Shown here: piece after piece, positions 46,266 to 63,499 of the stretch
Position numbering within the stretch: position 1 is the stretch's first letter
How the letters are laid out: each line of letters begins with the position of its first letter
Assembly: GCA_905221615.1 (NCBI GenBank)
Contig: CAJNDT010003235.1
Span: 690,560-754,559, forward strand
Length of the DNA: 64,000 nt
From: Symbiodinium sp. CCMP2592
Lineage: Eukaryota > Sar > Dinophyceae > Suessiales > Symbiodiniaceae
Reading direction: 5' to 3'
The notes under the pieces: model-generated
Database searches by the model: none
The model's input: the letters and a program-made list of their open reading frames with translations, nothing else
What the model was told of the DNA's origin: nothing
Made by a program: the position numbers and the translations under genes

Positions 46266-46916
46266 TTAGGCCCCCCCTCTGGCCGTGGGCGGCCCATGGG
46301 AGGAGAGCTGGCCTGCCGTGTCAGCTTCACCGCCGGATTGCTCTGGAGCCCCTGTGGGCGTGGATGTTTCATCGGCGGGCTGGGGCTTCTTGCCTTTCTC
46401 CCCCCCGTGGGCCGGTGGGGTTTTGCCTTTCTTGGTCCGTCTTTTCTTTTGAAACGAAGACCTGCTGGTCGAGGGGCTGGACGACTCTGCCGATTTTTCC
46501 TCGCCAGTCTTCCTGGGGTACACAACCTGTGGGCCTTGATCTTTGTCATACCCCATCAAGGCTTGCATGCGCCTTCCCAGGAAAAGTGCAACCGACTCTG
46601 CCAGCGCATCAGATTGCTTGAGGGCAGTTGCTCGGTCTTTCGCTTCCTTTGTGGCTGCCCGCGCCCCAACGAGACGATCGACTTCATCATTGATGACTCT
46701 GCGCCATTCTTGGCCCGGCCCTACTTGCTCCAAAAATTCGGAAGCTGTAAGGTGTGAGGGGACCCAATGCAGATCCAGCTGCTCCGTGGGGGCCGTTCCA
46801 AAGATGTCAAGATGGCGGCCTTTCGTCGTGGTGCCGCGGCGGCTTCTCGCCACAGCGCCTTTGCAGTCACTTGTGACATCAGCCCCGGGCTGGAGCTGCT
46901 TGGGCAACACCGTCAC
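46266..46916 (-). mobile_element. 5'-truncated LINE: RNase H domain remnant
   Basis: The 216-codon frame carries RNase H signatures in order: VTSDCKGAV (first catalytic Asp), LHWVPSHL and INDEVDRLVGA (last catalytic Asp). This arrangement follows the reverse transcriptase in many non-LTR retrotransposons. No reverse transcriptase is found upstream; repeats begin at once at 46930, so the element is 5'-truncated. The second half of the frame is Lys/Ser/Gly-rich linker. Confidence 0.6.
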
Positions 46917-48691: not shown

Positions 48692-49261
48692 CTAGCTTTT
48701 TGCACAACGGCTGGGCGCATCGTCAATCTTGCATGGGTAAGCGACCTCCGAAGCCGTTCTTTTCAGAACCAAGAAGAGCTCCGTCGATCTTTTTAGTTCG
48801 AGTCTCATCTCCGCGATGTCAGTCTTTCCGTTGACTGAGTCGATGATGTCGTCAGGAAGAACTTGATGATAGTAACAGAGCGAGGTACCGAAATGCCAGG
48901 CCATGCGATCGTTGTGAGCGGCCAGAAGTCCATTTGCTTGAACACTAACCACTTTGAGCTTGCCTTCTCTGTTGGCAAAGCGCAGACCTATGCTAGTCGT
49001 TTCATCCGTGCGAAGCAGTTGTATTTGGAAGTGGAAATCCGGGTGTCCTGACGGCAGCTGATAATCTTCCAGCAAGACTTCTTTTTTTCGTCGTCGAGAC
49101 ATCAGCCGCACTTTGTCTGCTACCGCAGCACGGCCGCCAGGCATGCTCGTCGCAGAGAATTCTGGTCTGCAACGCGAGGCCTCAACGGACGGCGCTTTCG
49201 AGGACGACGCACTCGAAGATGCGGGACGGTGAATAGCTTCGTCTGATACTCGAGAATCCAT
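48692..49261 (-). CDS. PDZ-domain protein, 189 residues
   Basis: In-frame ATG at 49261 (MDSRVSDEAI). Residues 1-70 are Ser/Ala-rich then basic (MSRRRKKEVLLEDYQLP). Residues ~76-168 form a PDZ-like domain: FHFQIQLLRTDETTSIGLRF with the carboxylate-binding GLxF-type loop as IGLRF, LKVVSVQANGLLAAHND, VLPDDIIDSVNGKTD (the conserved turn before the second helix) and ELFLVLKR as the last strand. PDZ domains bind C-terminal peptides. The last ~20 residues look unlike a PDZ end, and GAG|GTCGCT near 48755 could be a donor, so the true 3' end may be in another exon. An LE leader lies 95 nt upstream (49356-49392). Confidence 0.65.
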   Translation of the reverse strand: MDSRVSDEAIHRPASSSASSSKAPSVEASRCRPEFSATSMPGGRAAVADKVRLMSRRRKKEVLLEDYQLPSGHPDFHFQIQLLRTDETTSIGLRFANREGKLKVVSVQANGLLAAHNDRMAWHFGTSLCYYHQVLPDDIIDSVNGKTDIAEMRLELKRSTELFLVLKRTASEVAYPCKIDDAPSRCAKS

Positions 49262-49355
49262 AGCAGGCGGTATCAAACAGCAAGTGATGGATCTTCCCAG
49301 GAGCTCAACGAACAAAATGGCTCTCAACTATTCCCAGCGAAAACGTTTCGGAAGG

Positions 49356-49392
49356 CGGCTTCGTCTGGCTACAGAGCCGAGACGTCTGCGAT
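49356..49392 (-). repeat. LE leader element upstream of the PDZ gene
   Basis: On minus: ATCGCAGACGTCTCGGCTCT followed by GTAGCCAGACGAAGCC. It matches the element repeated 12 more times to the right. It is the leftmost copy, 95 nt before the PDZ start codon. About 30 nt further on, minus reads AGCCATTTTG, a 10-base match to the middle of the dinoflagellate spliced leader. Confidence 0.65.
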
Positions 49393-49556
49393 CGCCTCGT
49401 GCGTCCGTCTGGACAGAAGCAGGTCACGTTAATGAGACAGCACAAAAAGCACGAGGGCGGGCGCAGTAGCATTTTTGCTGACGGCAGTTTTTTTTTCCCG
49501 AGGAACACTGTCAAAGGCTTGTTGGGAGGCTGCACAGCACGTTCTTGTCTTTCCTC
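49393..49556. other. Spacer with T-run
   Basis: Between the LE element and the Cys-rich repeat. TTTTTTTTCCCGAGG at 49488 on plus. No gene seen. Confidence 0.4.
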
Positions 49557-49800
49557 AGAAGCAATCGGAGAGCAACGACCTCGGATAAATTTCGGATAAC
49601 GGGGAGCACCTGCCGCTGTTTGGTTTCTGCTTGTTATGTAGGAACAGGTCATGGCACTTAATGCAGCAACACGGCACGTCATCGAAGTCGTCGACTTCCG
49701 GAATTGCCAGAGGAGTGCCTGCAAGCCGAACGAGAATCTCTTGCTCGGGTTCTAGAACAGGAAACGCATCAGCACCTAATGCAGAACGCGTTACCTTTCT
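49557..49800 (-). CDS. Cys-rich exon, tandem copy 1
   Basis: The minus frame reads VLEPEQEILVRLAGTPLAIP, EVDDFDDVPCCCIKCHDLFL, HNKQKPNSGRCSPLSEIYPR, ending SLLSDCF and a stop. CCCIKC plus the following Cys could bind zinc. A homologous copy with about eight amino-acid changes and no frameshift lies immediately to the right, so reading frame was kept after duplication. It is probably an exon; preceding codons (RKVTRSALGADAFP) lie just after a GGAGAAAG|GTAACG donor-like site. Confidence 0.5.
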
Positions 49801-50062
49801 CCATCACAAGAGCAATCGGAGAGCAACGACCTCGGATAAATTTCGGATAACAGGGAGCATCTGCCGCCGTTTTGTTTCTGCTTGTTATGTAGGAACAGGT
49901 CATGGCACTTAATGCAGCAACACGGCACGTCATCGGAGTAGTCGACTTCCGGAATTGCCAGAGGAGTGCCTGCAAGCCGAACGAGAATCTCTTGCTGGGG
50001 TTCTAGAACAGGAAACGCATCAGCACCTAATGCAGAACGTGTTACTTTTCTCCATCACAAGA
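49801..50062 (-). CDS. Cys-rich exon, tandem copy 2
   Basis: Reads VLEPQQEILVRLAGTPLAIP, EVDYSDDVPCCCIKCHDLFL, HNKQKQNGGRCSLLSEIYPR, then SLLSDCSCDGER before a stop. The C-terminus differs from copy 1 because copy 1 lost the shared CTCTTGTGATGGAGA end. Unknown family. Confidence 0.5.
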
Positions 50063-50302
50063 GTGGTCGACCTGAGAGCAGCACTTTCGTAGATTTGGCA
50101 AGCTCAATCGACACGTGCAACTTTCTTGGAAATTTTTGCCAACCGGCGCTGACCACGCCAGTTCGCTGGATTCAGGCGCTGTTCGGTGAACCTTAGCACA
50201 AGGAAGTTATTAGTATCGCTTAGAAAACTCCGAGTCGTTCAGCGTATGAAGAAGGAGTGGGTTGTGCACCCGAAAAAAAAACCTTTCGGCAAAGACTTTC
50301 TG
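50063..50302. other. Spacer, no gene recognised
   Basis: Includes an A-run at 50273. Nothing else seen. Confidence 0.35.
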
Positions 50303-50454
50303 GCTGCCAATTTCACCACGGCCGTCTGTACACGTGTCCGGTAGCCAGCGTCTTCTGCGCAGTCTGCCGAGGGATGTCCGGCACATCGTCTTTTCGGAGA
50401 ACATCGAGAACAGCCGCAGTTGTTTCCGTCGCTCAGCGACAGTGTCGAACGGTG
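50303..50454 (-). repeat. Module M copy 1 (exon-like)
   Basis: Starts on minus after TTTGTACAG| and ends near AAATTGGCAGCC. The frame stays open throughout: CRVQTAVVKLAARKSLPK-like TRVQTAVVKLAARKSLPKGF preceded by CGCSRCSPKRRCAGHPSADC. Relative to copies 2-6 it is one base shorter in the middle, so it and they cannot share one frame end to end. Confidence 0.6.
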
Positions 50455-50543
50455 CTGTACAAAGTACGACGAAGCATGCACCAACGCCTTGGTTTTGTAG
50501 TTGATTGATTGCGTTCGATTAGCCTAGCCATTTCAAATAGCTA

Positions 50544-50600
50544 TCAAGGTTCGTCCAGGACCAGGCCCACGGTCACATAGGTTCGCGAGGATTTGTATCA
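50544..50600 (-). CDS. Terminal exon fragment (TYVTVGLVLDEP)
   Basis: The minus frame ends RTYVTVGLVLDEP and a stop. The equivalent place in unit 3 (53339-53415) reads RHYVAVRLVLDED and a stop. The similarity between two units at a C-terminus after a likely donor in block B suggests a short last exon. Only these two units keep it. Confidence 0.4.
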
Positions 50601-50751
50601 GGTGGAAGAAATTTTTTGCGTCCCAATGCAGCCGAGTTTTTGGAGGCATCTCCTCGTCAGCCGTATCACGACGGCTGTTGCATCGGGTCCAGAAAATATT
50701 TGTATGTGCTACAGCGAAGAGCACGACGGCACACAGATCTGGCATGCCCGT

Positions 50752-51160
50752 TACCTCGGCAGTTCCATCCTTGGAACCCCACGAGGCCTCGCTGCGACGG
50801 AGAAACCTCCCAGGTTCGCAAGCCCACCCTCCGTCGCAGTCTCCCTCCCCTCCGCCCGTGGCCTGGCCACGTTCTTGCGAGCTTAGTGCAATGGTGGGGC
50901 GAATCGGATATGCTCGGCTTTTAGCAAAGCACATCCGCGTCGCGCCCCATTGCGTTGGAAGCTGTGTCTTCGGCAGGACCGCTTTGCATTTACACTGAAG
51001 TTCCATGGAGCGTTTTCTGCAATGCGACGCACACAGCTGCCGAAGACAGCGGCCCTTTTTCGGATCCAGCATGGAACTGGGCCCAGGTTCATGTCGTGTC
51101 TTATAGGCAGCTGCAAGGGCATTCGGCGTGGTCTGGCTAGAGAGCCGAGACTCCTGCGAT
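50752..51160 (-). repeat. Block B copy 1 (multi-hairpin, exon-like) with LE
   Basis: Conserved ~330-410-bp block. Inverted pairs on plus: GTTCCA/TGGAAC; CTGCGACGGAG/CTCCGTCGCAG; CGTGG/CCACG; a ~25-bp arm from CAATGGTGGGGCG to GCGCCCCATTG; GTCTTCGGCAG/CTGCCGAAGAC; then LE (51123-51159). On minus the block ends exactly at CTGCCGAG|GTAAC, a good donor site. The minus frame is open across it (CKAVLPKTQLPTQWG ... SWGSKDGTAE). Confidence 0.7.
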
Positions 51161-51410
51161 GGTTGCACTCAAACGTGTGGCTGGTGCATGGTGATTACTT
51201 CAAAAACACACTGGGGTTCCTGGCCGCTTAGCTCTCTGCGCGGTTTGGTGGACCTCGGCGCACGTTTCTGCATCTGAGCCCCGCCTGATGTCGGCGTAGA
51301 ACAGTTTTGCACCTCTTCGTCAGCTTGCGTTCATTCTTTAAGAAGCAGCAGCCGACCTGAGGCAAGATAAGATCGATTAGGCAGACGTCAGCGTCAGAGG
51401 CAAGATCTTA
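51161..51410. other. Inter-module spacer of the array
   Basis: Contains CTGGGGTTCCTGG, a relative of the AAGCAACTGGGGTCTCC motif found about 45 bp past LE in other units, and GGACCTCGGCGCACGTTT, which also recurs. Confidence 0.5.
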
Positions 51411-51564
51411 GGCTGCCAATTCCACCCTGGCCGTCTGTACATCTGTCCAGCAGACGCCGTCTTCTGCGGCGTCAGCGGAAGCAGGCTCCGGCATGTCGTC
51501 TTGTCGGAGCACACCGAAAACAGCCGCAGTTGCCTCCGGTGTTCAAAGACAGTGTCGAAAGGTG
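51411..51564 (-). repeat. Module M copy 2
   Basis: Acceptor-like TTCCTTAATTGTACAG| on minus. Words ASADAAEDGVCWTDVQTARV and ELAA are readable in one frame, then a stop. On plus it also reads GCQFHPGRLYICPADAVFC, so strand assignment is not proven by openness alone. Confidence 0.6.
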
Positions 51565-52089
51565 CTGTACAATTAAGGAAGAAGCACGCATTAACTCTTC
51601 ATACGCTTTCGCTTGCTGCAGCTGCAAAATCGCGGCAGCTCTGGAAAAAGATTTGAACGGTGGTGTCTTTCTCTTTTCGTTTGTTATCCAAGCGAGATCT
51701 CCTCGACGGCGCGGCATGTTTCTGCCGGCATCAAGCCGGTCCGGGCGGCAGTGTGCGGCGTTGACGGATCGGACGGTGGCACAAAAGCTGAATATTTTTC
51801 TTGTGCAGTCCGAGGTCGACGTGCTCCGAGCTTTCGTTTGGTGATCACGGAGCCAGCTTCTGGCCGCCAGGCCAAGAATCCAAGCAGATGCGAAATCTAT
51901 GCACGGGATCGACGTAGACGCATACCGACCTGGCTGTAGCGGAAGACAGAGCAGCAGTCTTTCTGATGGCCGCGCACAATCCAAACGCAGCAGTCGAAGT
52001 ACCGCGAATACCTCTCCGGTCTTCACAGCTCTTCAGCCGGCCGGCGCACCTTGTCGGCCGACCGAGGCGCAGATTTAACGTGCCTTTTT
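51565..52089. other. Inter-module spacer; shared with 55960-56070
   Basis: The segment around TCCGAGGTCGACGTGCTCCG through GATGCGAAATCTATGCAC recurs at about 55966-56062, showing the units once shared longer flanks. Confidence 0.6.
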
Positions 52090-52499
52090 TACCTCGGCGG
52101 TTCCAGTTTTGGAACCCCATGAGGCCTCGCTGCGACGGAGAAACCTCGAAGGTTTGCAAGCCCACCCTCCGTGGCAGTCTCCCTCCCCTCCGCCCGTGGC
52201 CTGGCCACATTCTTGCGAGTTCAGTGCAATGGTGGGGCGAACCGGATATGCTCGGCTTCTAGCAAAGCACATCCGGTTCGCGCCACATTGCGTTGCAAGC
52301 TGTGTCTTCGGCAGGACAGTTCTGCATCTTCGCTCCAGTTCCATCGCGTGGGTCGTGCAATGTTACGTCCATGGTTGTACAAGACGGCGGTTCGGTTTTT
52401 TCGGATCTTGCATGGCCTGGGGTCCAGGTTCATGTTACGTCCTGGGCAGTTGCGAGGGCACTCGGCTTATTCTGGCCAGAGAGTTGAGACTGCTGCGAC
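52090..52499 (-). repeat. Block B copy 2 with LE
   Basis: First stem is extended here (GGTTCCA/TGGAACC). Second stem carries one mismatch (CTCCGTGGCAG). Donor-like CCGAG|GTAAAA at 52090. LE (52461-52499) is the most diverged of the array (GAGTTGAGACTGCTGCGA). Confidence 0.7.
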
Positions 52500-52776
52500 T
52501 GTCGCATCCAAATCGGTACTTGGGGCATGGTGCTGACTTCACCATGTGACTGGGGTCTCCGACTGCTCAGACCGATGAGCGGTTCGGCAAACCTCGGCGC
52601 ATGTTTGTGGAGCTCAGTATATCGCGACGCGACGGAGCTGAGGGCGACACCGGAGGAACCTGAAATAGGTCTGGATCTTGTCGACAACCTGCAGTTCTTT
52701 TGCTAGAACCAGAAATTGACCTTAGAGCAGATAACAGCAAGTAGGCAGACGTAAGCGACACGAGCAAGATCTTTTG

Positions 52777-52928
52777 TTGCCAATTCCACCGCGGCCATCT
52801 GTACATGTGCCCGGCAGGCAGCGTCTTTTGCGTCTTTTGCCTGACCAGGCTTCGGCACGTTCTCTTATCGGAGAACATCGAAAACAGCCGCAGCTGCCCC
52901 CGGTGTTCAGCGACAGTGTTGAAAGGTG
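52777..52928 (-). repeat. Module M copy 3
   Basis: Acceptor-like TTCCTAAATTGTACAG|. The minus frame 52567-53082 stays open for 171 codons through it (CTAPFNTVAEHRGQLRLFSM). The left edge has TTGCCAAC instead of TTGGCAGCC. Confidence 0.6.
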
Positions 52929-53338
52929 CTGTACAATTTAGGAAGAAGCGTGCAGGAACTCCTCGATGTAGTGCCTTGCTGCAAGAGACAGCAAACTTCA
53001 GTACTTTTCGGTTCGGTTGCTTTGTAGGAAAGGATAGCTCTCCCCGATGGTCTGTGCGGCGTTTAGCATGCGCTCGCAGCATTGGGCAAGCGCCTCACGG
53101 GAACGCCCTGCAGTGGAGCGCGCTCAGGCAAACAGGGAGGACCAAGACCGACTAGAGGGTCTCCCACTCCTGGATTCTGTCCTCGGAGAAGCTGTCCAGA
53201 AAACATTCCTCGACAACATGGCCGTTGAGTGCGGCACGCGGACGTCGGAGGTCCGCGTGCAGCATCAAACCCAGCAGTAGAAGTACCGCGACTCGAAAAA
53301 CACGCGTCTTCCGGAATAGGAGGAGACGCCCAACGGAG
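52929..53338. other. Spacer between units
   Basis: Unique to this unit. A short minus frame includes LRRPRAALNGHVVEECFLDS. Not recognised. Confidence 0.35.
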
Positions 53339-53418
53339 TCAATCTTCGTCCAAGACCAGGCGCACGGCCACGTAGTGTCGTGGGTTGGCACGCGATCTTC
53401 TCGTCAGACAGAATCTTG
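53339..53418 (-). CDS. Terminal exon fragment (RHYVAVRLVLDED)
   Basis: Minus frame RFCLTRRSRANPRHYVAVRL then VLDED and a stop, in the same relative place as the fragment at 50544. Lies just after the block B donor at 53436 with too little room for a normal intron, so the true acceptor is unclear. Confidence 0.4.
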
Positions 53419-53435
53419 CGGCCCCTTTTTTTGGT

Positions 53436-53815
53436 TACCTCGGCAGTTCCATTTTTGGAACCCCACGAGGCCTCGCCGCGACGGAGAAACCTCCAAGGTT
53501 CGCAAGCCCACCCTCCGTCGCAGTCTCCCTCCCCTCCGCCCGTGGCCTGGCCACGTTCTTGCGAGTTCAGTACAATGGTGGGGCGAACCGGATATGTTCG
53601 GCTTCCAGCAAAGCACATCCGGCTCGCGCCCCATTGTGCTGCAAGCAGTGTCTTCGGCAGGACAGTTTTGCAGTCGTGCAACGCCACGCCTCCGGCTGCA
53701 GAAGACGGCGGCGGTGTTTCGGATCCTGTATGGCTTCGGTCCAGGTTCATGTTATGTCTTAGGCATTAGCAAGGGCATTCGGCTTTGTCTGGCCAGAGAG
53801 CCGAGACTCCTGCGA
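53436..53815 (-). repeat. Block B copy 3 with LE
   Basis: Donor-like CTGCCGAG|GTAACC at 53436. The part between the 25-bp hairpin and LE is shorter and contains GCCTCCGGCTGCAGAAGAC, shared with copy 4. LE at 53779-53815. Confidence 0.7.
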
Positions 53816-54068
53816 TGTTGCATGCAAATGTCTAGCTGGTGCATGATCACGACCGCAATAAGTCACCGGCGCGTTCGGTTGCTTTGTTTTAGGTATGGTT
53901 CGGTAGACCTCGGCGCATGTTTTTTGGAGCTCTGCGCGACATGTTGTCAGCGTATCACGGCATTGCACTTGTCTTCGAGAACTTGTGGTTCTTCTGCAAG
54001 AAGAAGTAGCTGACCTCAGAGCAGACCAGATCGAGCAGGCACACGTCAGCGACTTGAGCAAGAGCTTT

Positions 54069-54222
54069 GGCTGCCAATTCCACCCTGGCCGTCTGTACAT
54101 CCGTCCAGCAGACGCCGCCTTTTGCGTCGTCCGCAGAAGCGGGCTCCGGCACGTCGTCTTGTCGGAGAACACCGAAAACAACCGCAGTTGCCTCCGATGT
54201 TCAAGGACGGTGTCGAAAGGTG
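54069..54222 (-). repeat. Module M copy 4
   Basis: Acceptor-like TTCCTAAATTGTACAG|. One minus frame reads PEPASADDAKGGVCWTDVQT, ARVELAAKALAQVADVCLLD, LVCSEVSYFFLQKNHKFSKT. This is the most protein-like reading of the module and continues past its left edge. Confidence 0.6.
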
Positions 54223-54554
54223 CTGTACAATTTAGGAAGAAGCGTGCAAGAAATCGTCACTTGCATTCGTCTTCTGCTGCCCCAAAAGCGCAGGCCCTCC
54301 GGCATGCGATTTGCACGGTATTTTCTCTCCGGTGAATTTTCTTGATTGTTCAAGCAAAGGTCGGCGTTTGCAGTGTGGCAGTGACGCAGGTTGAAGTATC
54401 GCAACATGTATTCTGGATTTCTAAGCTGTCTCGAAAACAATCGGAGACAGCGTGGCCGTCGGCATGTCGCACTGCGGCTTGCAGGCTGGCTCGAGGCCAA
54501 AGCGTCTCGCCGGGTCAAGCACAATGTGTTGACATTGTTTTCGGACGAAAAAGT
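54223..54554. other. Inter-module spacer
   Basis: Contains TCGGAGACAGCGTGGCCGTCGG, a segment also present at 55650 and (duplicated) at 57375. Confidence 0.5.
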
Positions 54555-54959
54555 TACCTCGGCAGTTCCAGTCTGGGAACCCCATGAGGCCTCGCCGCGA
54601 CGGAGAAACCTCCAAGGTTCGCAAGCCCACCCTCCGTCGCAGTCTCCCTCCCCTCCGCCCGTGGCCTGGCCACGTTCTTGCGAGTTCAGTGCAATGGTGG
54701 GGCGAACCGGATATGTTCGGCTTCTAGCAAAGCATATCCGGCTCGCGCCCCGTTGCGTTGCAAGCTGTGTCTTCCGCAGGACAGTTTCGCGTCGTCGCTC
54801 GAATTCCATCCCGTGGGTCGTGCAACGCCACGCCTCCGGCTGCAGAAGACGGCGGCGGTGTTTCGGATCCTGCATGGCTTCGGTCCAGGTTCATGTTATG
54901 TCCTAGGCATTTGCAAGGGCATTCGGCTTGGTCTGGCCAGAGAGCCGAGACTCCTGCGA
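54555..54959 (-). repeat. Block B copy 4 with LE
   Basis: Donor-like CTGCCGAG|GTAACT. The minus frame through the block is part of a 224-codon opening (54201-54875). LE at 54922-54959. Closest to copy 3. Confidence 0.7.
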
Positions 54960-55198
54960 TGTTGCATGCAAATGTCTAGCTGGTGCATGATCTCGACCGC
55001 AATAAGTCACCGGCGTGTTCGGTTGCTTTGTCTTAGGTGACCTCGGCGCATGTTTTTGGAGCTCTGCGCGACATGTTGTGAGCGTCGAACAGTACTGCAC
55101 TTCTTCGAGAACTTGTAGTCCTTCTGCAAGAAGAAGTAGCCGACCTCAGAGTAGACCAGATCGAGCAGGCACACACCAGCGACCCGACCGAGATCTTT

Positions 55199-55352
55199 GG
55201 CTGCCAATTCCACCCTTGCCGTCTGTACATCCGTCGAGCAGACGCCGCCTTTTGCGTCGTCCGCAGAAGCGGGCTCCGGCACGTCGTCTTGTCGGAGAAC
55301 ACCGAAAACAACCGCAGTTGCCCCCGATGTTCAAGGACGGTGTCGAAAGGTG
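55199..55352 (-). repeat. Module M copy 5
   Basis: Almost identical to copy 4; minus reading PEPASADDAKGGVCSTDVQT, ARVELAAKDLGRVAGVCLLD, LVYSEVGYFFLQKDYKFSKK. The upstream acceptor reads TTCCTAAACTGTACAG|. Confidence 0.6.
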
Positions 55353-56249
55353 CTGTACAGTTTAGGAAGAAGCGTGCAAGAAATCGTCACTTGCTGTCGC
55401 TTGCTGCAGACACGAAAGCGTCACTTGCTGTCGCTTGCTGCAGCCGCAAACCCGCAGCAGCCTTGGCACGCGGTTTGCACGGTGGTTTCTTTGTTTTTTT
55501 TGTCACTTTTTTGGCGACCTCCTTCTGATAGTCCACGCGGCGGTCGGCATGTTCCTGCCGGCCTGAAGCTGGACTGGACGGCAGTGTGGCAGTGAGGCAG
55601 GTCCAAGCATCGCTACATCTATTTTGGATGGCTAAGCTGTGCTGAAAACATTCGGAAACAGCGTGGCCGTCGGAAGTCGCCCGCTGCATCTGCAGGCTTT
55701 CCTGGCGTCAGACGGTCCCGCGGGTACGTCGCAGGTCTGTCTTCAGACGGTCCTTGTGTCAGACGCTCGAGTCGGCGTGTCAAATGCACAGATCACGTTT
55801 TCCGACCCGCTCAGATCGAAACTTCTTTTCGGTGTAGTCTCCGGCTCAAGAACAGCTCGGTTCTCTGACCCGCTCAAGCCGTTCTTTTTACTCTGTTGTC
55901 ATGGTTCTCATCTGGAATTCACGGAGCAGACGGTTCAACAGAAGCCGTACTTTTTTTCCGTGTAGTCCGACGTCGATGTGCTTCGAGCGGTCGTCTGGCG
56001 ATCACGGACGCAGCTTCTAGCAGCCAGGCCAAGCATCCGATCAGATGCGAAATCTATGCACTGGTTACTAGCGTGAACGTACGCGCGGCTTAATGGGAGC
56101 CAGAAATCCATCCGCCGGAGCATTCGCGACATCATGATGGCAGTCATCATAGCGCAGCTGTTCTCCTTGGAGCTCGTGGTCGACGAGTTTCTTCTTGTCC
56201 TCAGAGCATAGATGTCGGCAGCCAAGATCTTGCACACTGCATTGCCTGC
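55353..56249. other. Long inter-module spacer
   Basis: Contains a small direct repeat (TCACTTGCTGTCGCTTGCTGCAG twice at 55387 and 55422) and segments shared with other spacers. Frames such as SRSAAG-rich minus readings are not recognised. Confidence 0.45.
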
Positions 56250-56622
56250 TACCTCGGCAGTTCCAGTCTTGGAACCCCATGAGGCCTCGTTGCGACGGAG
56301 AAACCTCCAAGGTTCGCAAGCCCACCCTCCGTCGCAATCTCCCTCCCCTCCGCCCGTGGCCTGGCCACGTTCTTGCGAGTTCAGTACAATGGTGGGGCGA
56401 ACCGGATATGCTCGGCTTCTAGCAGAGCACATCCGCTTCGCGCCCCGTTGCGCTGCAAGCTATGTCTTCGGCAGGACCATTCCGGTTCCATCGCGTGTGT
56501 CGTGCAATGCGACGGCGGCGGTGCTTCTGATCTTGCATGGTTTCGGTTCAGGTTCACGTCATGTCCTGGGCAGGTGCAAGGGCATGCGGCTTAATCCGGC
56601 CAGAGAGCCGAGATTCCTGCGA
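56250..56622 (-). repeat. Block B copy 5 with LE
   Basis: Here the second stem reads TTGCGACGGAG/CTCCGTCGCAA: the C-G pair of the other copies is replaced by T-A on both sides. Donor-like CCGAG|GTAGCA. LE at 56586-56622. Confidence 0.7.
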
Positions 56623-56761
56623 AGCTCGCACTCAAACCGGTTGCGGGGGCATGCTGATTGTTTCAGAAAGCAACTGGGGTCTCCGGCTGTTCAGACCGAT
56701 GCGCGGTTCGGCAGACCTCGGCGCACGTTTCCGGAGCTAGCTTCGCGCGACGCGACACTGC

Positions 56762-56763
<2 letters not shown>

Positions 56764-56801
<38 letters not shown>

Positions 56802-56872
56802 GATATATATATATATACATACATACGTATATATATATATATATATATGTATACGTATATATGTATATTTGC
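56764..56872. repeat. AT/ATAC microsatellite
   Basis: (AT)n with TATATACATACATACG interruptions, inserted in the unit between LE and module M. The Ile/Tyr open frame is an artefact. Confidence 0.95.
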
Positions 56873-56993
56873 TTCTTATAGACAAGTTCCAGACATTCTG
56901 CAGGAAGAAGCAGCTCACCTTACAGCAGACAAGACGAAGTAGAGACCGACCATGCAGACGACAGCGATAGGGGTAAGATCTTTGGCTGCCAAT

Positions 56994-57139
56994 TCCACCC
57001 TGGCCGTCTGTACATCTGTTCAGCAGGCGCCGTCTTTTGCGTCGTCGGCAGAAGCAGAAAAAAAGGCACGTCGTCTTGTCGGAGAACACCGAAAACAACC
57101 GCAGCTGCCCCCGGCTTTCAAGGACGGTGTCGAAAGGTG
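56994..57139 (-). repeat. Module M copy 6
   Basis: Acceptor-like TTCCTAAATTGTACAG|. A deletion and an A-run (AGAAAAAAAGG on plus) change the central frame. The downstream minus frame reads ELAAKDLTPIAVVCMVGLYF then VLSAV before AAG|GTGAGC, a canonical donor-like site. Confidence 0.6.
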
Positions 57140-57881
57140 CTGTACAATTTAGGAAGAAGCGTGCACGAACTTCCGACTTGCTTTCGATTTCCGCAGCAGC
57201 TCTGTCAGGCGATTTGCGCGTTGGTTTCTCGTCCACACTCTCATTGCTGGATCCGGCGATCCTTTTCGTCAAAGCGATCGCAGTTGATTCTGCGGTCCGG
57301 TTTCTTTTCTCGCTAGGCAGGCCCTAGCATCGCAAAGTGCATTCTGGATTGCCAAGCCGTCCTGGAAACCATCGGAGACAGCGTGCCGTCCTGGAAACCA
57401 TCGGAGACAGCGTGGCTGTCGGCACCTCGCAGCTCGCGGTCCTTTTGTCGGACGGTCTCGAATGGGTGCGGGCATGTCAAGCCGAAACTTCTCTTCGCGA
57501 AGTGTCCAGCTCTCGGAGCGCGGTTCCTGACCCGCTCAAGCCGAAACGAGTTTATCTGCAGTCACCAGCTCTCGTCTGGCCTTCACCGAGCAGACGCTTC
57601 GATGAAAGCCGAGTATCCTTCTTGTGTACTCCGAACCCGAAGTGCATCTGGCGGTCATCTGGCGATAAGAGAGCCAGCTCTGCTGCTTCATGCCATCGAG
57701 CCACGGCCGTGAGCCGAAGCATTCGCGACGGCATGGCAGAGAATATATGGAAGATCTGTGCGCCGCGCACTCCGAATCCGAAGTGCATCTAGGGGTCGTC
57801 TGTCTATAACGGAGCCAGCGTCGCGGGAGCCATTACAGCACAGATCTTGGCATTCCAGATCTTGCACACTGCGTTCTTTGT
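57140..57881. other. Inter-module spacer with internal duplication
   Basis: GCCGTCCTGGAAACCATCGG plus AGACAGCGT occurs twice in tandem (57356 and 57386). CCGAAGTGCATCT occurs at 57639 and 57777. Confidence 0.6.
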
Positions 57882-58290
57882 TACCTCGGCAGTTCCATTT
57901 TTGGAACCCCATGAGGCCTCGCTGCGACGGAGAAACCTTCAAGGTTGGCAAGCCCACCCTCCGTCGCAGTCTCCCTCCCCTCCGCCCGTGGCCTGGCCAC
58001 GTTCTTGTGAGTACAGTGCAATGGTGGGGCGAACCGGATATGCTCGGCTTCTAGCAAAGCACATCCGGCTCGCGCCCCATTGCGTCGCAAGCTGTGTCTT
58101 CGGCAGGACAGTTCTGCCTCTCCACTGCAGTTCCACATTGTCGGTCGTGCAATGCGACGCCCACGGCTGCCGAAGACGACGGCGGGTTTTTCGGATCCCG
58201 CATGGCTTCGGGCCCGGGTTCATGTCATGTCTTGGGCAGTTGCAAGGGCATTCGTCTTATTAGTCCGGCCAGAGAGCCGAGACTCCTGCC
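57882..58290 (-). repeat. Block B copy 6 with LE
   Basis: GAACCTTGG is changed to CAACCTTGA on minus, which puts a stop in the frame open in copies 1-5. Donor-like CTGCCGAG|GTAACA is intact. LE (58250-58290) carries a 3-bp insertion and starts CGTCTTATTAG. Confidence 0.7.
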
Positions 58291-58546
58291 ACGGTTACAT
58301 CCAAATTGCTAGCTGGGGCATGACGATTGCTTCACGAAGTCGCTGGGGTCTCCGGCTGCTCGGACCGATGCGCGGTTCGGCAAACCTCGGCGCAGGTTTG
58401 TGGAGCTCAGTTTGGCGTGACACGAGACTGCAAGATTGTTGCTCCCTATCGACAAGTTCCAGACTTGCTGCAAGAAGAAGCAGTTGACCTTACAGCAGAC
58501 AAGACCAAGTAGAGACTCATACGTACGGTACACGAGGAAGATCTCG

Positions 58547-58640
58547 GGCTGTCTATTTTGTGTCGCCCGTCTGTACTTGTGTCCAGCAGCTATAGTCTCC
58601 TGCTTTGTTTGCAGAAGCGGAAGCGGGCTCCGGCGCGTCG
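58547..58640 (-). repeat. Module M copy 7 (diverged, partial)
   Basis: Only the left half is recognisable (CGTCTGTACTTGTGTCCAGCAG on plus); the acceptor end is lost. Confidence 0.5.
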
Positions 58641-58732
58641 ACTCGTTACACAAGATCGATAGTTTGTCTAGTCTGTCTAGTTTATTCATGCAGGCTGTGC
58701 CGGTCTTTTTCTCTTTCAGGAGGACGTACTGC

Positions 58733-59422
58733 TCACTCGTTGGCGACCGGCGTGGACGCTCGCCCCACCATCCTCTGTCGCTGGAAGAGTCCTTGAACGA
58801 GAAGCAAGAGATCGTCCAGAAGAACGGAGAGGTCGTAACAAAAATCCAGAACGGTCGGGTTCTGCGTCTTCTCGCAAATGTATCTAAGCAGTGTGAGACA
58901 ACGAGGAAGAGCCAGAAGCAACAGACGCGAAGTGGCATCTTTCAATGACCCCCAGGCCATTGTGGCTTTTACGTCGAAAGGCAAGTTTCTGCCGAGGGAC
59001 ACCGCCGCTTCCAGGTCGGCACGGCGGATGCATTCTTCCACGTCCAGGATGCGCTCGTCGCCGACTTGCAATTGATCTTCGGGAGTGTGCCTGAATTATC
59101 ACAAAGCTGCAAGAAGAGCGTCCGCACTCATAGCTTCTATTTAGGGTATTCGGCAACGCAACAGCACAACTTTGTATTCTTGCTGCATACAAAGCGACAA
59201 AAGCGTGCTGAGCACGTCGGCGGAGAATGCTAATGTTTGTAGCGAGACAGCAGGACCGACGCGAAGAACTCGGTAGGCGGCCAGCACAACCGCGTGAAGG
59301 TCCTGCCACGCATTGTCGACGCTCCGCCGTAGTTCATCGCTGTTCGGGGACAGTGCCCGCCGAGCGGAGTGCATGGCGGCGGCGGTGTTCCACACGCCAA
59401 ACGCGCAGGGCGCCAGGTCCAT
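58733..59422 (-). CDS. Two-exon gene with a GC-AG intron, 198 residues, unknown function
   Basis: Exon 1 59184-59422 (MDLAPCAFGVWNTAAAMHSA ... ADVLSTLLSLCM) and exon 2 59090-58733 (HTPEDQLQVGDERILDVEEC ... QRQRMVGRASTPVANE, stop). The proposed 93-nt intron starts GCAAGA and ends TTCAG followed by G; it splits one Gln codon and keeps frame (597 nt in total). The protein is rich in Leu/Ala helices (LLLLALPRCLTLLRYICEKT, DLSVLLDDLLLLVQGLF) and may be a helical bundle; no known family. An LE element (59465-59500) lies 43 nt before the ATG. GC-AG introns with AG|G are a known dinoflagellate feature. Confidence 0.6.
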
Positions 59423-59464
59423 GTGGGTGTTGCGGCTGCAGGAACCAATGATGTCGTGTCGACT

Positions 59465-59500
59465 GCGGCTTGGCCTGGCTAGCGAGCCGAGACCCTGCGA
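59465..59500 (-). repeat. LE element upstream of the two-exon gene
   Basis: On minus TCGCAGGGTCTCGGCTCGCT then AGCCAGGCCAAGCCGC. The plus strand can fold GGCCTGGCT/AGCCGAGACC with a bulge. Confidence 0.8.
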
Positions 59501-59994
59501 CTGTGCCGTCCGAATCCAGTGCTCTTTCTGGGTTCACACAAGCAACTGGGCATTCTGGCCTCTGCTCTGGGCTGCGCTTTGGTCGTCAAGCGCTGGAAGT
59601 GATTGGACCTTGGTTCCATGGTCGACAAAGCAGAAAACATTGGAACGAAGACGTTGTTCAAAGGCGCAGCAAGTCTTGGCAACAAACGCACGCAGCAGTT
59701 TTTTTTGGGGCCTTCCATGGAAGAGTTCGGGTCATCCAAGGCAACGTCATTTTCGGGGGGGGCCACCGGGCACGTTAGCTCATGAGTCCAGATGTCATGG
59801 TCGGATGCCCGCCGACCGTTGGCCCCAACCCCCCCCATATGCTCCAGGACCAACGATTTTTGTTCGGTCTCTGTCAAGAAGCAATAGACCTTGGTGTACG
59901 TAGAACGAGATCTGAGATGGTTTTGCAACACAACGGTCGAGACGCAAAACTACATGCACTCCGTCTCTTTTTGGGACCGTGGCCACTGACAGGA
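59501..59994. other. 3' flank of the MVPF gene copy A
   Basis: 59870-59994 is near-identical to 62828-62952 and belongs to the 2.96-kb tandem unit. The rest is unique; a G-run and C-run pair at 59755/59830 is notable. No other gene. Confidence 0.5.
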
Positions 59995-60468
59995 CTAGTA
60001 GACTCTCACTTCGCGAAGGAGCATGTAGATTAATGCACTCAACTGCTTTGCCGTCATTACGCTGGCCGAAGTGTTGTGAGCCAACACGTCAGGATGCACG
60101 GCCACGAGCTGCATTCGGAGCCAGCTTGTAAACTTCGGTTTGTTCATTTCCTTTCTGGTGTCGAAGTCGTGCAGTACGAAGGATCCGCTTCGTTGGTCTC
60201 CTGAGTTGTATTGGGGTAGCCAGGAAGGAGGCAAATCCTTTGGTGGCACGTTCAGGATCGTTTCCACGCCAGTCTCAGATGCCTTGCTCCAGGGTTCTGC
60301 CGATGCTGTCCCGGTCGATGTTCCTGCGGCCGACGCTGCGGCCGTTTCCGTTTCCTTCGATGTCGAGGGGAGATCTAGATCCGGCGGCCCGGGAAGCCGG
60401 CGTGGTTCCATGTTCCCAACCTGCAAGCTAGGGCTGCGATGGCTGTTCTCAATCCCAAATGGAACCAT
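59995..60468 (-). CDS. MVPF gene, copy A (157 residues, unknown)
   Basis: Reads MVPFGIENSHRSPSLQVGNM, a Ser/Thr/Ala linker (TETAAASAAGTSTGTASAEP), then a conserved C-terminal half (LNVPPKDLPPSWLPQYNSG, KPKFTSWLRMQLVAVHPDVL, TAKQLSALIYMLLREV). About 80% identical, without gaps, to the copy at 62953-63426. No known family. LE ends 39 nt before the ATG, with a leader containing TTAGACACTAGAGACAGACTC. Confidence 0.55.
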   Translation of the reverse strand: MVPFGIENSHRSPSLQVGNMEPRRLPGPPDLDLPSTSKETETAAASAAGTSTGTASAEPWSKASETGVETILNVPPKDLPPSWLPQYNSGDQRSGSFVLHDFDTRKEMNKPKFTSWLRMQLVAVHPDVLAHNTSASVMTAKQLSALIYMLLREVRVY

Positions 60469-60506
60469 GGCTAGGAGGCAAGGAGTCTGTCTCTAGTGTC
60501 TAATAT

Positions 60507-60541
60507 CAGCTTGGCCTGGGCAGACAGCCGAGACCTTGCGA
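60507..60541 (-). repeat. LE element upstream of MVPF copy A
   Basis: On minus TCGCAAGGTCTCGGCTGTCT then GCCCAGGCCAAGCTGA. Its acceptor-like start is CGCAAG|G. Confidence 0.8.
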
Positions 60542-60681
60542 TTCGCGGATGGAACTTCTCTTGCATTTATTGGGTAGGCAACCCAACACACGTCGAACCG
60601 ACATGCAGCGACCAGACACGTTTTGGCGGTCGCCACGGACGTTTAGTTTCTGGAAACATGAAGAGCGGCATCGGATGATTC

Positions 60682-61452
60682 TCAGGTTTCGTCGGCCTTG
60701 GGCTGCGGCGATCCACTGTCCGTTCTTTGGCATAAACCACTGTCGTATTTTATATCGACACGCCAGACGGGCATTTTCCATGCTGTCTCGATTGCCACAG
60801 CGCGTAGTCGGAGAGGATCCGGCCGCTCCAATAGACGGATGAAGACGAGGCGTCTCCAATTTCCATAGTTGTGGACGATGCGTTTAATCTCACGAGGCAA
60901 TCCGGCAACTAGACAGAGCATAGGCAAGAAAGTTCGCTGGGTTCGGAAAAAGTCTAGTTTTTTCAGAGAGACGTTCTCAAGGTATTTCTCCCAGCAGAAC
61001 GAGGCGAGCCGCCAGCTGTCCTGGAGGGTCCTGATAGCATGCCGCAAGATTGATTTGCAGGTAGCGCACAGGAGCTGCGATTGCATCGTCCCAGCTTGCA
61101 GGAAGCGCACCTTGATCTCTCCAGTCTGGTGGTCCGTGAGCACTGAAAGCCGAGGTAGTCTGCCCTTCCAGGCTCGCAGGTTGGCCTTGACCTCTTCGTC
61201 CGTTAGGCGCGGCCAGCTGTACAGGAATTTGCCTTCTTCGTCTTGGTATCGATAAACACGTTCTACATTTTCCCGGGGTTCGCAGAGACATAGTTTCGCC
61301 CGCACCAAGCATGCATATCGAAAAATGCGCTCGAGCAAAATTGCCGGCAAAGCCAGAAGGTCTGTATTCTTCCCGAAAAGCAGCTCTTTTCCGGATGCTG
61401 TCGATCTAGAAAGGGAATCATGGCCGGAAGGCAAGGCGTTCGTGTCTAACAT
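60682..61452 (-). CDS. F-box-like protein, copy A (256 residues)
   Basis: From the ATG at 61452 (MLDTNALPSGHDSLSRS). Residues ~31-60 (DLLALPAILLERIFRYACLV) look like an F-box or related LP..LL..IF..A helix. Next is a charged middle (RYQDEEGKFLYSWPRLTDEE), CATCKSILRHAIRTLQDSWR, then LCLVAGLPREIKRIVHNYGN and RPDPLRLRAVAIETAWKMPV. A second in-frame-shifted ATG (61427, MIPF...) shares its first residues with the MVPF genes. F-box proteins recruit substrates to ubiquitin ligases; that role is inferred. LE is directly upstream. Confidence 0.6.
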   Translation of the reverse strand: MLDTNALPSGHDSLSRSTASGKELLFGKNTDLLALPAILLERIFRYACLVRAKLCLCEPRENVERVYRYQDEEGKFLYSWPRLTDEEVKANLRAWKGRLPRLSVLTDHQTGEIKVRFLQAGTMQSQLLCATCKSILRHAIRTLQDSWRLASFCWEKYLENVSLKKLDFFRTQRTFLPMLCLVAGLPREIKRIVHNYGNWRRLVFIRLLERPDPLRLRAVAIETAWKMPVWRVDIKYDSGLCQRTDSGSPQPKADET

Positions 61453-61488
61453 CAGCTTGGTCCGGCCAGAGAGCCGAGACCTTCGGGA
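61452..61488 (-). repeat. LE element directly before the F-box-like gene
   Basis: Minus strand: CCGAAGGTCTCGGCTCTCTG then GCCGGACCAAGCTG, followed at once by ATGTTAGACACGAACGCC. The leader after it matches the MVPF leader (TTAGACAC, CCTTGCCT, GCCATG). Confidence 0.75.
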
Positions 61489-61607
61489 TTGTAGCAAAGG
61501 TGCGACTTGTTGGGGGGGGGGGGGAGGAAATCGAGTATCCTGCGTTAATGAGGGTGTTCTGATAATTGGAGCCTTCGATCTTGTCTAGTCCTATTTACGA
61601 AACGAGG

Positions 61608-62690
61608 CTAGTACTGAAGAATCGTTTGTTTTCTGTGCCACTTGTTAAGAGCGTTCGGCTTGGTCTGGCTAGCGAGCCGAGACCCTGCGAACGCAACCTT
61701 CGAGAAACGATCTGGAATGTTTTCATCGAAGCGACCGGGGTCTCCGACCGCAGACACGTGGATCTTTGTTTCGTCCCCTGCGTGCGCCGGGGACGAAAGG
61801 CAGGCGACGTACTTGCCTTCTGGTTCAAGTCCACGTAGTTCTCTATCGGTTCGAGGGAGTTCCGAAACCTGCTGGCAAGGGCAGCGGGGATTTACTGCTT
61901 GCACAAGCGATCCGTCCTGTGTGTTTCCGTTTGATAGCTTCACGTGAAGGGTGGGTACGAGGCTGCCATCTGGTAGAGTAGAAAACCCAAGTGTTGAAGA
62001 GCTTCCCCCGCTGGCATCGAGTGGGTCATCATCTCACACAGACTACTGGCTAGCCAGAACGTGCGCACACATAAAGGCAAAAAGTCCTCGAGTAAGGCTC
62101 GCGCGGCAAAGCACCGACGAACGAAGTCGTAGAGCGCGAGAAATCACCTGCGATGTGAGGGGAGCGTGGCAGCGGTTGGTCAGGATGCTAGCGATCCTCT
62201 TGGAGATCAACACAAAGAGCGAGAGAACTTTTTCATGCGTGATAAGCCCGCTGCAAGCGTGGTACGTCACTCCGAAAGAAACCAATGAGGTTCAGGAAGA
62301 TGGCTCGAACTTCACGATTGCACACACGCAATGCCTTGGAGGCAGAGAATCCCAGATGTAGGAGCAGGAGCGCGGAGGAACGAGCTGCTCCAAGCAAGTT
62401 GCGCAAATCGGCGCGTGTCTGTCCGGGACGCAGAAGGATCTCGGAGCGCCAGCCAGGAATCAGGGTTTGCTCCTGCAGCCATAATAGAATCAATCGTCCT
62501 CGCGGGACTCTTGCTACCTGAGTGAAGCGTCGACGGAGGCGCTCGGGGCCGGAGGTCATTCGTTTCGGTCGGACGGGGGGCATTTTTTTTGGCCGTGGGG
62601 CCAAGGATAGTTTTTTTTTCTCATCATTTGCTAGAATCTTCTGTGCTCGAAGCAGGTCTCGAGGCCGACAGTTGTCGGCATTCTTTTACA
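61608..62690 (-). CDS. Multi-exon minus gene candidate, unknown function
   Basis: Three protein-like minus segments lie in order. (a) ~62290-62685: DLLRAQKILANDEKKKLSLA, then LRPGQTRADLRNLLGAARSS, KALRVCNREVRAIFLNLIG. (b) 62043-62250: HACSGLITHEKVLSLFVLIS ... GLFAFMCAHVLASQ. (c) ~61690-62030: DDDPLDASGGSSSTLGFSTL, PDGSLVPTLHVKLSNGNTQD, GSLVQAVNPRCPCQQVSELP, ending FDENIPDRFSKVAFAG. Segments are in different frames, so introns or frameshifts separate them. An LE element overlaps the end of (c), so the coding part probably stops before 61690. No ATG identified for (a). Confidence 0.4.
61653..61690 (-). repeat. LE element between candidate genes
   Basis: Minus strand: TTCGCAGGGTCTCGGCTCGC then TAGCCAGACCAAGCCGAACG. 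No clear ATG-initiated ORF follows within 100 nt, unlike its neighbours. Confidence 0.8.
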
Positions 62691-62702
62691 GTTGCTAGAA
62701 GC

Positions 62703-62740
62703 GTTCGGCTTGGTCTGGCTAGCGAGCCGAGACCCTGCGC
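62703..62740 (-). repeat. LE element upstream of the multi-exon candidate
   Basis: Identical core to the copy at 61653 (GGGTCTCGGCTCGCTAGCC). The open frame of segment (a) begins about 15 nt further on. About 65 nt before it on minus is CAGTTGCTTCGATTAACC, the recurrent LE-flank motif. Confidence 0.8.
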
Positions 62741-62952
62741 TGGCGGCGAAAAAGCTTGCGTCTGATTCCTGGTTAATCGAAGCAACTGGGCCGCCCGGCC
62801 GCTGGCGCGTGCAATTCTTGTTCTGTCGTTGTCAAGAAGCAATAGACCTTGGTTTACATAGAGTCAGATTTGAGATGGTTCTGCAACACAACGGTCGAGA
62901 CGTAAAACTGCATGCACTCCATCTCTTTTTGGGACCGTGGCCACTGTCAGGA

Positions 62953-63426
62953 CTAGTAGACTCCCACTTCGCGAATGACCATGCAGATAAATGCCCTCAG
63001 CTGCTTTGCCGTCATTACGCTGGCCGAAGTGTTGTGATCCGCCACGTTAGGATGCACGGCCATGAGCTGCATTCGCAGCCACGTTCTAAACTTCGGTTTG
63101 CTCATTTCCTTGCTGGTGTCGAAGGCGTGCAGGATGAAGGATCTGCTTCTTTGGCTTCCTGAGTTGTAGTGGGGTAGCCAGGAAGGAGGCAAATCCTTTG
63201 GTGGCACGCTCAGGATTGTTTGCACGCTCGTCGAAGACGCCTTGCCCCAGGGTTCTGCCGATGCTGTCCCGGTCGATGTTCCTGCGGCTGACGCCGCAGC
63301 CGTTTCCGTCTCCTTCGATGTTGAGGGGAGGTCTAGACCCGGCGGCCTGGGAACCCGGCGTGGTTCCATGTTCCCAACCTGCAAGCGAGGGCTGCGATGG
63401 ATGTTCTCAATCCAAAATGGAACCAT
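62953..63426 (-). CDS. MVPF gene, copy B (157 residues, unknown)
   Basis: Reads MVPFWIENIHRSPRLQVGNM and ends FICMVIREVGVY. Same length as copy A, no indels, many conservative changes in the C-terminal half. Lies 2958 bp from copy A. Same unknown function. Confidence 0.55.
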   Translation of the reverse strand: MVPFWIENIHRSPRLQVGNMEPRRVPRPPGLDLPSTSKETETAAASAAGTSTGTASAEPWGKASSTSVQTILSVPPKDLPPSWLPHYNSGSQRSRSFILHAFDTSKEMSKPKFRTWLRMQLMAVHPNVADHNTSASVMTAKQLRAFICMVIREVGVY

Positions 63427-63463
63427 GGCTAGGAGGCAAGGAGTCTGTCTCTAGTCTCTAATC

Positions 63464-63499
63464 TCAGCTTGGCCTGGCCAGAGAGCCGAGACCTTGCGA
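63464..63499 (-). repeat. LE element upstream of MVPF copy B
   Basis: Minus strand: TCGCAAGGTCTCGGCTCTCT then GGCCAGGCCAAGCTGA. Same position relative to the ATG (38 nt) as in copy A. Confidence 0.8.

Follow-up and report, generated by a model that had tools for sequence, protein, structure and literature searches.

Why should a row of unrelated genes, all read from one strand, carry the same short sequence at or just ahead of their starts? The question is raised by a stretch of 64,000 nt of Symbiodinium sp. CCMP2592 (assembly GCA_905221615.1, contig CAJNDT010003235.1, positions 690,560-754,559), which lies at the contig's end and is called the window below. A preliminary description had listed 13 copies of a leader-like element (LE) before minus-strand genes of the window, and had taken LE for a mobile or duplicated leader that contains a spliced-leader acceptor, or for a promoter or 5′-untranslated region (5′UTR) control element. 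Comparison of the copies now points to a hairpin in the sense-strand RNA as the most likely unit of selection. We consider the chances about even that LE acts in cis as a discrete RNA element of 30 nt, read by a shared factor, in the unidirectional gene arrays of a dinoflagellate.

Copies in the window and in the genome

With at most 3 mismatches allowed, LE was found 13 times in the window and not once in 100 dinucleotide shuffles. The same 13 copies, on the minus strand throughout, were recovered by a nucleotide profile and by a covariance model, which bears out the number and the single orientation first reported. The weakest copy scored 32.0 bits with the covariance model and the next match in the window 14.9 bits, and neither method detected anything comparable between 1 and 49 kb. 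The first copy (49354-49384, 42.2 bits) precedes a 189-amino acid (aa) open reading frame (ORF), formerly "PDZ". Six copies (51122-58284) come from a single tandem family whose units are spaced 1.1-1.7 kb apart: 51122-51152 (45.5 bits), 52461-52491 (40.4 bits, degenerate stem), 53778-53808 (46.0 bits), 54922-54952 (51.0 bits), 56585-56615 (43.4 bits, the two outermost pairs being A-U, not G-C) and 58254-58284, whose 3′ tail has diverged (32.0 bits over 58260-58284, the extent being that of the profile). The remaining copies lie before a 93-aa ORF (MDLAP...; 59464-59494, 48.0 bits), before MVPF A (60505-60535, 41.6 bits), over the start of a 256-aa ORF, the former "F-box-like" gene (61451-61481, 48.4 bits), 203 bp upstream of that copy (61654-61684, 51.2 bits), before a 116-aa ORF (MPPVRP...; 62704-62734, 51.2 bits) and before MVPF B (63463-63493, 51.8 bits).

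That LE stands ahead of candidate starts in the window was confirmed. Measured from the end of the 31-nt LE model, five candidate ATGs lie 36-120 nt on (92 nt for PDZ, 41 nt for the two-exon gene that the 93-aa ORF was thought to open, 36 nt for each of MVPF A and B, and 120 nt for the 116-aa ORF), and LE touches a sixth, the ATG of the F-box-like ORF, which overlaps it (-2 nt). These contexts are not all distinct. The MVPF region is present twice, at an offset of 2,958-2,959 bp, and two copies of LE belong to this duplicated region; the F-box leader is similar to the MVPF leader even outside LE. Together with the tandem family, this leaves ∼7 distinct LE contexts in the window. The motif CGCAG or CGCAAG, described as the start of the consensus, was found within 3 bases before LE in 11 of the 13 copies, the exceptions being those at 58263 (GGCAG) and 61460 (CCGAAG). 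The genes had been called unrelated: among nine proteins compared, MVPF A and B are related, and the other cross-matches had E values of 0.27 or worse. The proteins being otherwise unrelated and LE a bounded 30-mer, the conservation does reside in the short element, as had been proposed.

LE was then sought in the 1.1-Gb genome of Symbiodinium sp. CCMP2592. Its exact consensus occurs at 63 places; at least 557 copies with up to 2 mismatches were found, as compared with 3 for a reversed control, and a pattern with a variable loop gave 409 matches and the control none. Among the matches listed, the copies with up to 2 mismatches are mostly clustered, and contigs with two or more copies (variable-loop pattern, 100 of the 409) always carry them on one strand. 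Stretches were sampled around 19 exact matches (one of them, L011, coincides with the window's end), at 6 apparently isolated sites and at 6 more; they were chosen around LE and are not a random sample. At 30 of 30 loci, all matches of at least 22.8 bits were on one strand, in agreement with the single orientation noted earlier.

From 24 representatives, one per context, a 30-mer consensus, GGTCTCGGCTnnnTRGCCAGRCCAAGCCGA, was obtained. The representatives were taken from 21 of 39 clusters plus 3 apparently isolated copies, two mis-anchored clusters (34 and 37) and 16 related ones having been dropped. The information content jumps at positions 1-2 and drops past position 30. It is low in both flanks, apart from a weak signal at the preceding CGCAG and a slight one on the 3′ side. 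Positions 2-10 were invariant in 24 of 24 representatives, partly by selection, since a window-derived profile was used for finding the copies and the TCTCGGC core for anchoring them. A viral or prokaryote origin was considered and rejected; one exact LE pattern gave no match in viral contigs and none in prokaryote contigs.

The stem and its variation

LE is predicted to fold into a stem of nine pairs (1-5/19-23 and 7-10/15-18) with a bulged C6 and a loop that is usually of 4 nt; a conserved tail, CCAAGC, follows on the 3′ side. In an alignment of 36 rows, hand-picked from 67 unique LE rows and the copies at apparently isolated sites, 96.0% of 324 cells were paired, and the covariation score was reached by none of 500 shuffles. 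Changes on both sides were present in 3 pairs, a number equalled in 6 of 500 shuffles, and RNAalifold, unaided, returned the identical stem. In a larger alignment of 145 rows (77 distinct), which were found by and fitted to the covariance model, include 11 weak rows and are biased towards the model, 94.8% of the cells were paired, and 5 pairs (21 cells) had changes on both sides, as in none of 500 shuffles.

The kind of variation points to the strand. After removal of the 11 weakest of the 145 rows, pair 3-21 was U-A in 38, U-G in 27 and C-G in 6 of 72 unique rows, the remaining row having a gap. No mismatch occurred here or at pairs 5-19 and 10-15, and at all three pairs variation was limited to changes that preserve pairing in the sense RNA. 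In the genome, the C3-G21 form had 61 matches, repeats of few contexts, and the C3·A21 combination had 2, with a looser pattern. Among 37 LE sequences outside the tandem family, pairs 2-10 comprised 245 Watson-Crick, 41 sense-wobble, no A·C and 10 other cells (4 of 134 matches were excluded from these counts, two misaligned rows with loop inserts remain, and one window copy is doubled through L011). The partners of U thus vary as A or G, which fits the sense RNA and not the antisense. In the 72 rows the loop was of 4 nt in 58 and of 3 nt in 9, the rest ranging from 1 to 13 nt; the length changes of LE are located in the loop, and one stem is kept. Covariation of the stem, tolerance of G-U on the sense strand and changes in loop length together argue for an RNA hairpin. 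An alternative stem B (5-10/25-30) was rejected, since it had no changes on both sides and 500 of 500 shuffles were equally good.

If LE acts as such a hairpin, it would be transcribed with each gene, as part of the leader or spacer in the pre-mRNA, where it would fold. The hairpin and its tail would be recognized by a single, common factor, in the simplest case an RNA-binding protein or a processing complex, and unrelated neighbors in an array might thereby be processed or controlled jointly after transcription. This agrees with the 5′UTR half of the control element first suggested, a place that fits a sense-RNA hairpin. More tentatively, and at clearly less than even chances, LE could belong to a dedicated RNA-level system, in which one factor reads one stem-loop on the transcripts, coding and possibly non-coding, that dozens of unrelated genes in the arrays produce. 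Were this so, joint processing or translation would amount to a post-transcriptional operon built from one 30-nt word. Gene expression in dinoflagellates is described, in a passage of PMC12787238, as mainly post-transcriptional, and a part of PMC5029490 repeats the long-standing remark that spacers of tandem genes are without recognizable sequence elements. Because LE combines structure and a clear consensus with copies in the hundreds and compensatory variants that occur naturally, it lends itself to direct tests.

Several observations weigh against a cis-acting RNA element of array genes. Many copies are segmental duplicates, so that the rows of the alignments are not independent, and at several loci 2-4 copies lie close together. 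The tandem-family copies are looser and are the source of the A·C cells (in all 495 cells, 17 A·C and 23 other). On the wide 145-row alignment, with its weak rows and gapped loops, RNAalifold returned pairs 2-5 only (-0.83 kcal/mol), and the shuffle measures for further pair types were weaker (35 of 500 for 36 rows, 28 of 500 for 145 rows). By energy the antisense strand is slightly more stable (-14.6 versus -13.2 for the sense strand), and pairing of the tail with the 5′ arm of LE had no support from covariation. As to position, the enrichment of LE before gene starts that the preliminary description had proposed to test was not seen in a crude ORF-start test: a start followed in 14 of 27 context groups and 70 of 125 matches, random positions on that strand giving 43%. 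The test is weak because ORF density is high on the array strand. A second, perfect LE lies in frame inside a helicase-like ORF of 1,671 aa, and the sequence after LE in the tandem units, judging from its nucleotide pattern, is probably non-coding. There, a 300-nt block shared by six units in 50746-58175 (reference 54549-54848) varies by indels of 1-2 nt and is without codon periodicity.

Acceptor, promoter and other explanations

An alternative is that LE is a spliced-leader acceptor, the leader being joined at AG|G and the hairpin serving as the first structure of the mRNA, an enhancer of trans-splicing. The canonical dinoflagellate spliced leader is present in the genome, with 636 matches at up to 1 mismatch and none for the reversed control. 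An AG directly precedes LE in 22 of 28 context groups (background 19%), or in 20 of 26, but some of this is to be expected from the initial G of LE. Splice acceptors in general have a pyrimidine tract and an AG-free zone upstream. Before LE no pyrimidine tract was found (pyrimidines made up 0.41-0.47 of the last 32 nt in 26 groups), and the next AG lies a median of 11.5 nt further upstream, which leaves no AG-free zone. In the four helicase-ORF copies inspected no AG is found at the start of LE, one standing two bases earlier in L014, and in L020 pyrimidine runs occur 3′ of LE, near the ATG. A stricter pattern for a fusion of leader and LE had no match in the genome, and leader-derived sequence was absent from the window. 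The distances from LE to the ATGs are compatible with the 5′UTRs of 51-369 nt given for Amphidinium carterae in the part of PMC2488372 consulted, where acceptors are described as without a simple primary consensus beyond AG. The claim that LE contains the acceptor is not supported, given the lack of pyrimidine enrichment, the further AGs nearby and the absence of a fusion with the pattern used; an acceptor at the start of LE is not favored, and we consider the explanation as a whole unlikely.

A first, looser pattern for a relict leader fused to LE had given 47 matches and none for its control; it was rejected, as at none of the 18 distinct places inspected was the 3′ half of LE present, and the stricter pattern had no match. 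Relict leaders were seen in other settings: L034 carries two in tandem, and L041, L043 and L051 carry one, followed a few bases on by TCTCGGCT, which is not LE.

A DNA-level promoter, in which LE would be a palindromic site for a dimeric factor marking each array gene, could explain an imperfect inverted repeat close to gene starts, and, according to the portion of PMC5029490 at hand, a conserved 13-nt spacer sequence of Lingulodinium was once proposed as a promoter. The half-sites of LE, however, vary unequally, U3, U5 and U10 being mostly fixed and their partners A or G, and the 41 sense-wobble cells outside the tandem type stand against no A·C cell. Changes in loop length would, moreover, shift the phasing of the half-sites. 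Equal constraint on both half-sites and a fixed spacing, by which we would recognize a palindromic factor site, were not observed in LE. Wobble that suits the sense RNA alone and the variable loop disfavor the DNA promoter half of the original suggestion, which we regard as quite improbable.

We find it just as improbable that LE has no function for the genes, being either a hairpin micro-element that spreads by itself or a sequence carried along by segmental duplication and gene conversion. Its sharp ends and many contexts, the close tandem copies, the many segmental duplicates and the 30-nt copy that keeps the frame within an ORF would all be accounted for. Against it stand the single strand kept at each locus, the pairing retained by compensation and the conservation of LE where the flanks are lost. 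No empty LE site was found, but the three helicase paralogs compared are uninformative, since L053 runs into other sequence and L054 and L055 are too decayed. Counts of one-sided homology around LE (98 pairs with upstream homology only, 112 downstream only, 750 both and 7,296 the rest, of 8,256) were considered as a sign of recombination at LE and left unused, because the listed examples are dominated by one family. Finally, an intercistronic processing hairpin, which would cut a polycistronic pre-mRNA or end the upstream transcript, is consistent with the place of LE between closely spaced same-strand genes (∼146 nt separate the stop of the F-box ORF, at 60682, from the copy at 60505-60535), but it is very improbable, given that in the window genes measured LE is closer to the next ATG than to the previous stop and that one copy lies within an ORF.

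Several known systems come close to LE. Iron-responsive elements are mRNA stem-loops that act in cis and are recognized by one protein; like LE, they have a short stem with a bulged C, occur in the leaders of unrelated genes and are strand-specific. LE differs from them in its upper stem of 4 pairs, its loop of usually 4 nt and its presence within an ORF as well; it is without an Rfam match and is known here from one dinoflagellate genome. Introners and repeats of the miniature inverted-repeat transposable element (MITE) type consist, like LE, of short palindromic DNA repeated at numerous sites; LE differs in keeping to one strand per locus. The dinoflagellate spliced leader and its relict copies resemble LE in being short and in standing at, or close to, the 5′ ends of unrelated genes, but the sequence is different, the canonical leader is separately present, and no fusion was seen with the pattern used. 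The 13-nt promoter candidate of the Lingulodinium lcf and pcp genes is likewise conserved upstream of tandem dinoflagellate genes; by eye it does not match LE, it concerns two genes, and the part of PMC5029490 covered mentions no RNA structure. A search of the whole window against Rfam gave nothing above the gathering score, and a search of 50200-58700 gave matches below that score only; six 16-mers taken from LE were all absent from the literature searched. Stem-loop control elements are thus well known as a kind, and LE itself is new within the searches made; its use across unrelated dinoflagellate array genes would be unusual.

Reading frames, tandem units and other features

The ORFs downstream of LE in the window, all on the minus strand, differ in their support as genes. 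The 189-aa PDZ ORF (48692-49261) has a substitution pattern that supports coding, with a third-position excess (8.67/5.67/13.33, 3 unique copies). The 256-aa F-box ORF (60682-61452) has a weak excess and the MVPF ORF none, at 2-3 unique copies for each ORF. MVPF A (59995-60468) and MVPF B (62953-63426), both of 157 aa, are 81% identical. The 93-aa ORF, described as a first exon, occupies 59141-59422, and the 116-aa ORF 62233-62583, in a frame without a Pfam domain. For the PDZ and F-box ORFs, Pfam gave no domain at E values up to 0.1, which leaves those names unconfirmed.

Elsewhere in the genome, LE lies ∼49-55 nt ahead of the ATG of ORFs of 581-585 aa, two of which contain ankyrin repeats (Pfam Ank_2, E values of 1.4e-14 and 6.5e-14), and ∼28 nt ahead of the ATG of the 1,671-aa ORF. 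The latter (L018, 2264-7279, minus strand) is intronless and helicase-like, with GAGAGKT (Walker-type) and DEAQ motifs recognized by eye, between which the inner LE is translated as SRLSGQTKPK. Pfam returned ResIII alone (E value 0.06), the whole ORF had no match in the Protein Data Bank (PDB) at E values up to 0.1, and a 401-aa part of it had 20 genomic matches. Among the six apparently isolated LE sites, four have one leader in common; in L028, L030 and L031, which share it, the candidate ATG, as judged by eye, follows a probable intron. In L020 (7592-8857, minus strand) four LE-like copies, 259-603 bp apart, are followed by pyrimidine runs; a candidate ATG comes after three of them, and a basic ORF rich in lysine, MTKPKLPVAKAAKKAAGK, begins with the last.

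The conserved segment after LE in the tandem units (54549-54848, minus strand; 29 unique copies) has a strong predicted structure on both strands. Within it, 19 unique copies hold an imperfect hairpin of ∼25 pairs, which has the shape of a microRNA precursor and whose variation is largely compatible with wobble pairing. In the rest of the window, an ORF on the minus strand at 46266-46916 resembles, by eye, the RNase H region of a retroelement, and many TTTAGGG/CCCTAAA tracts of the telomere type are interspersed between 2520 and 30240, within the contig.

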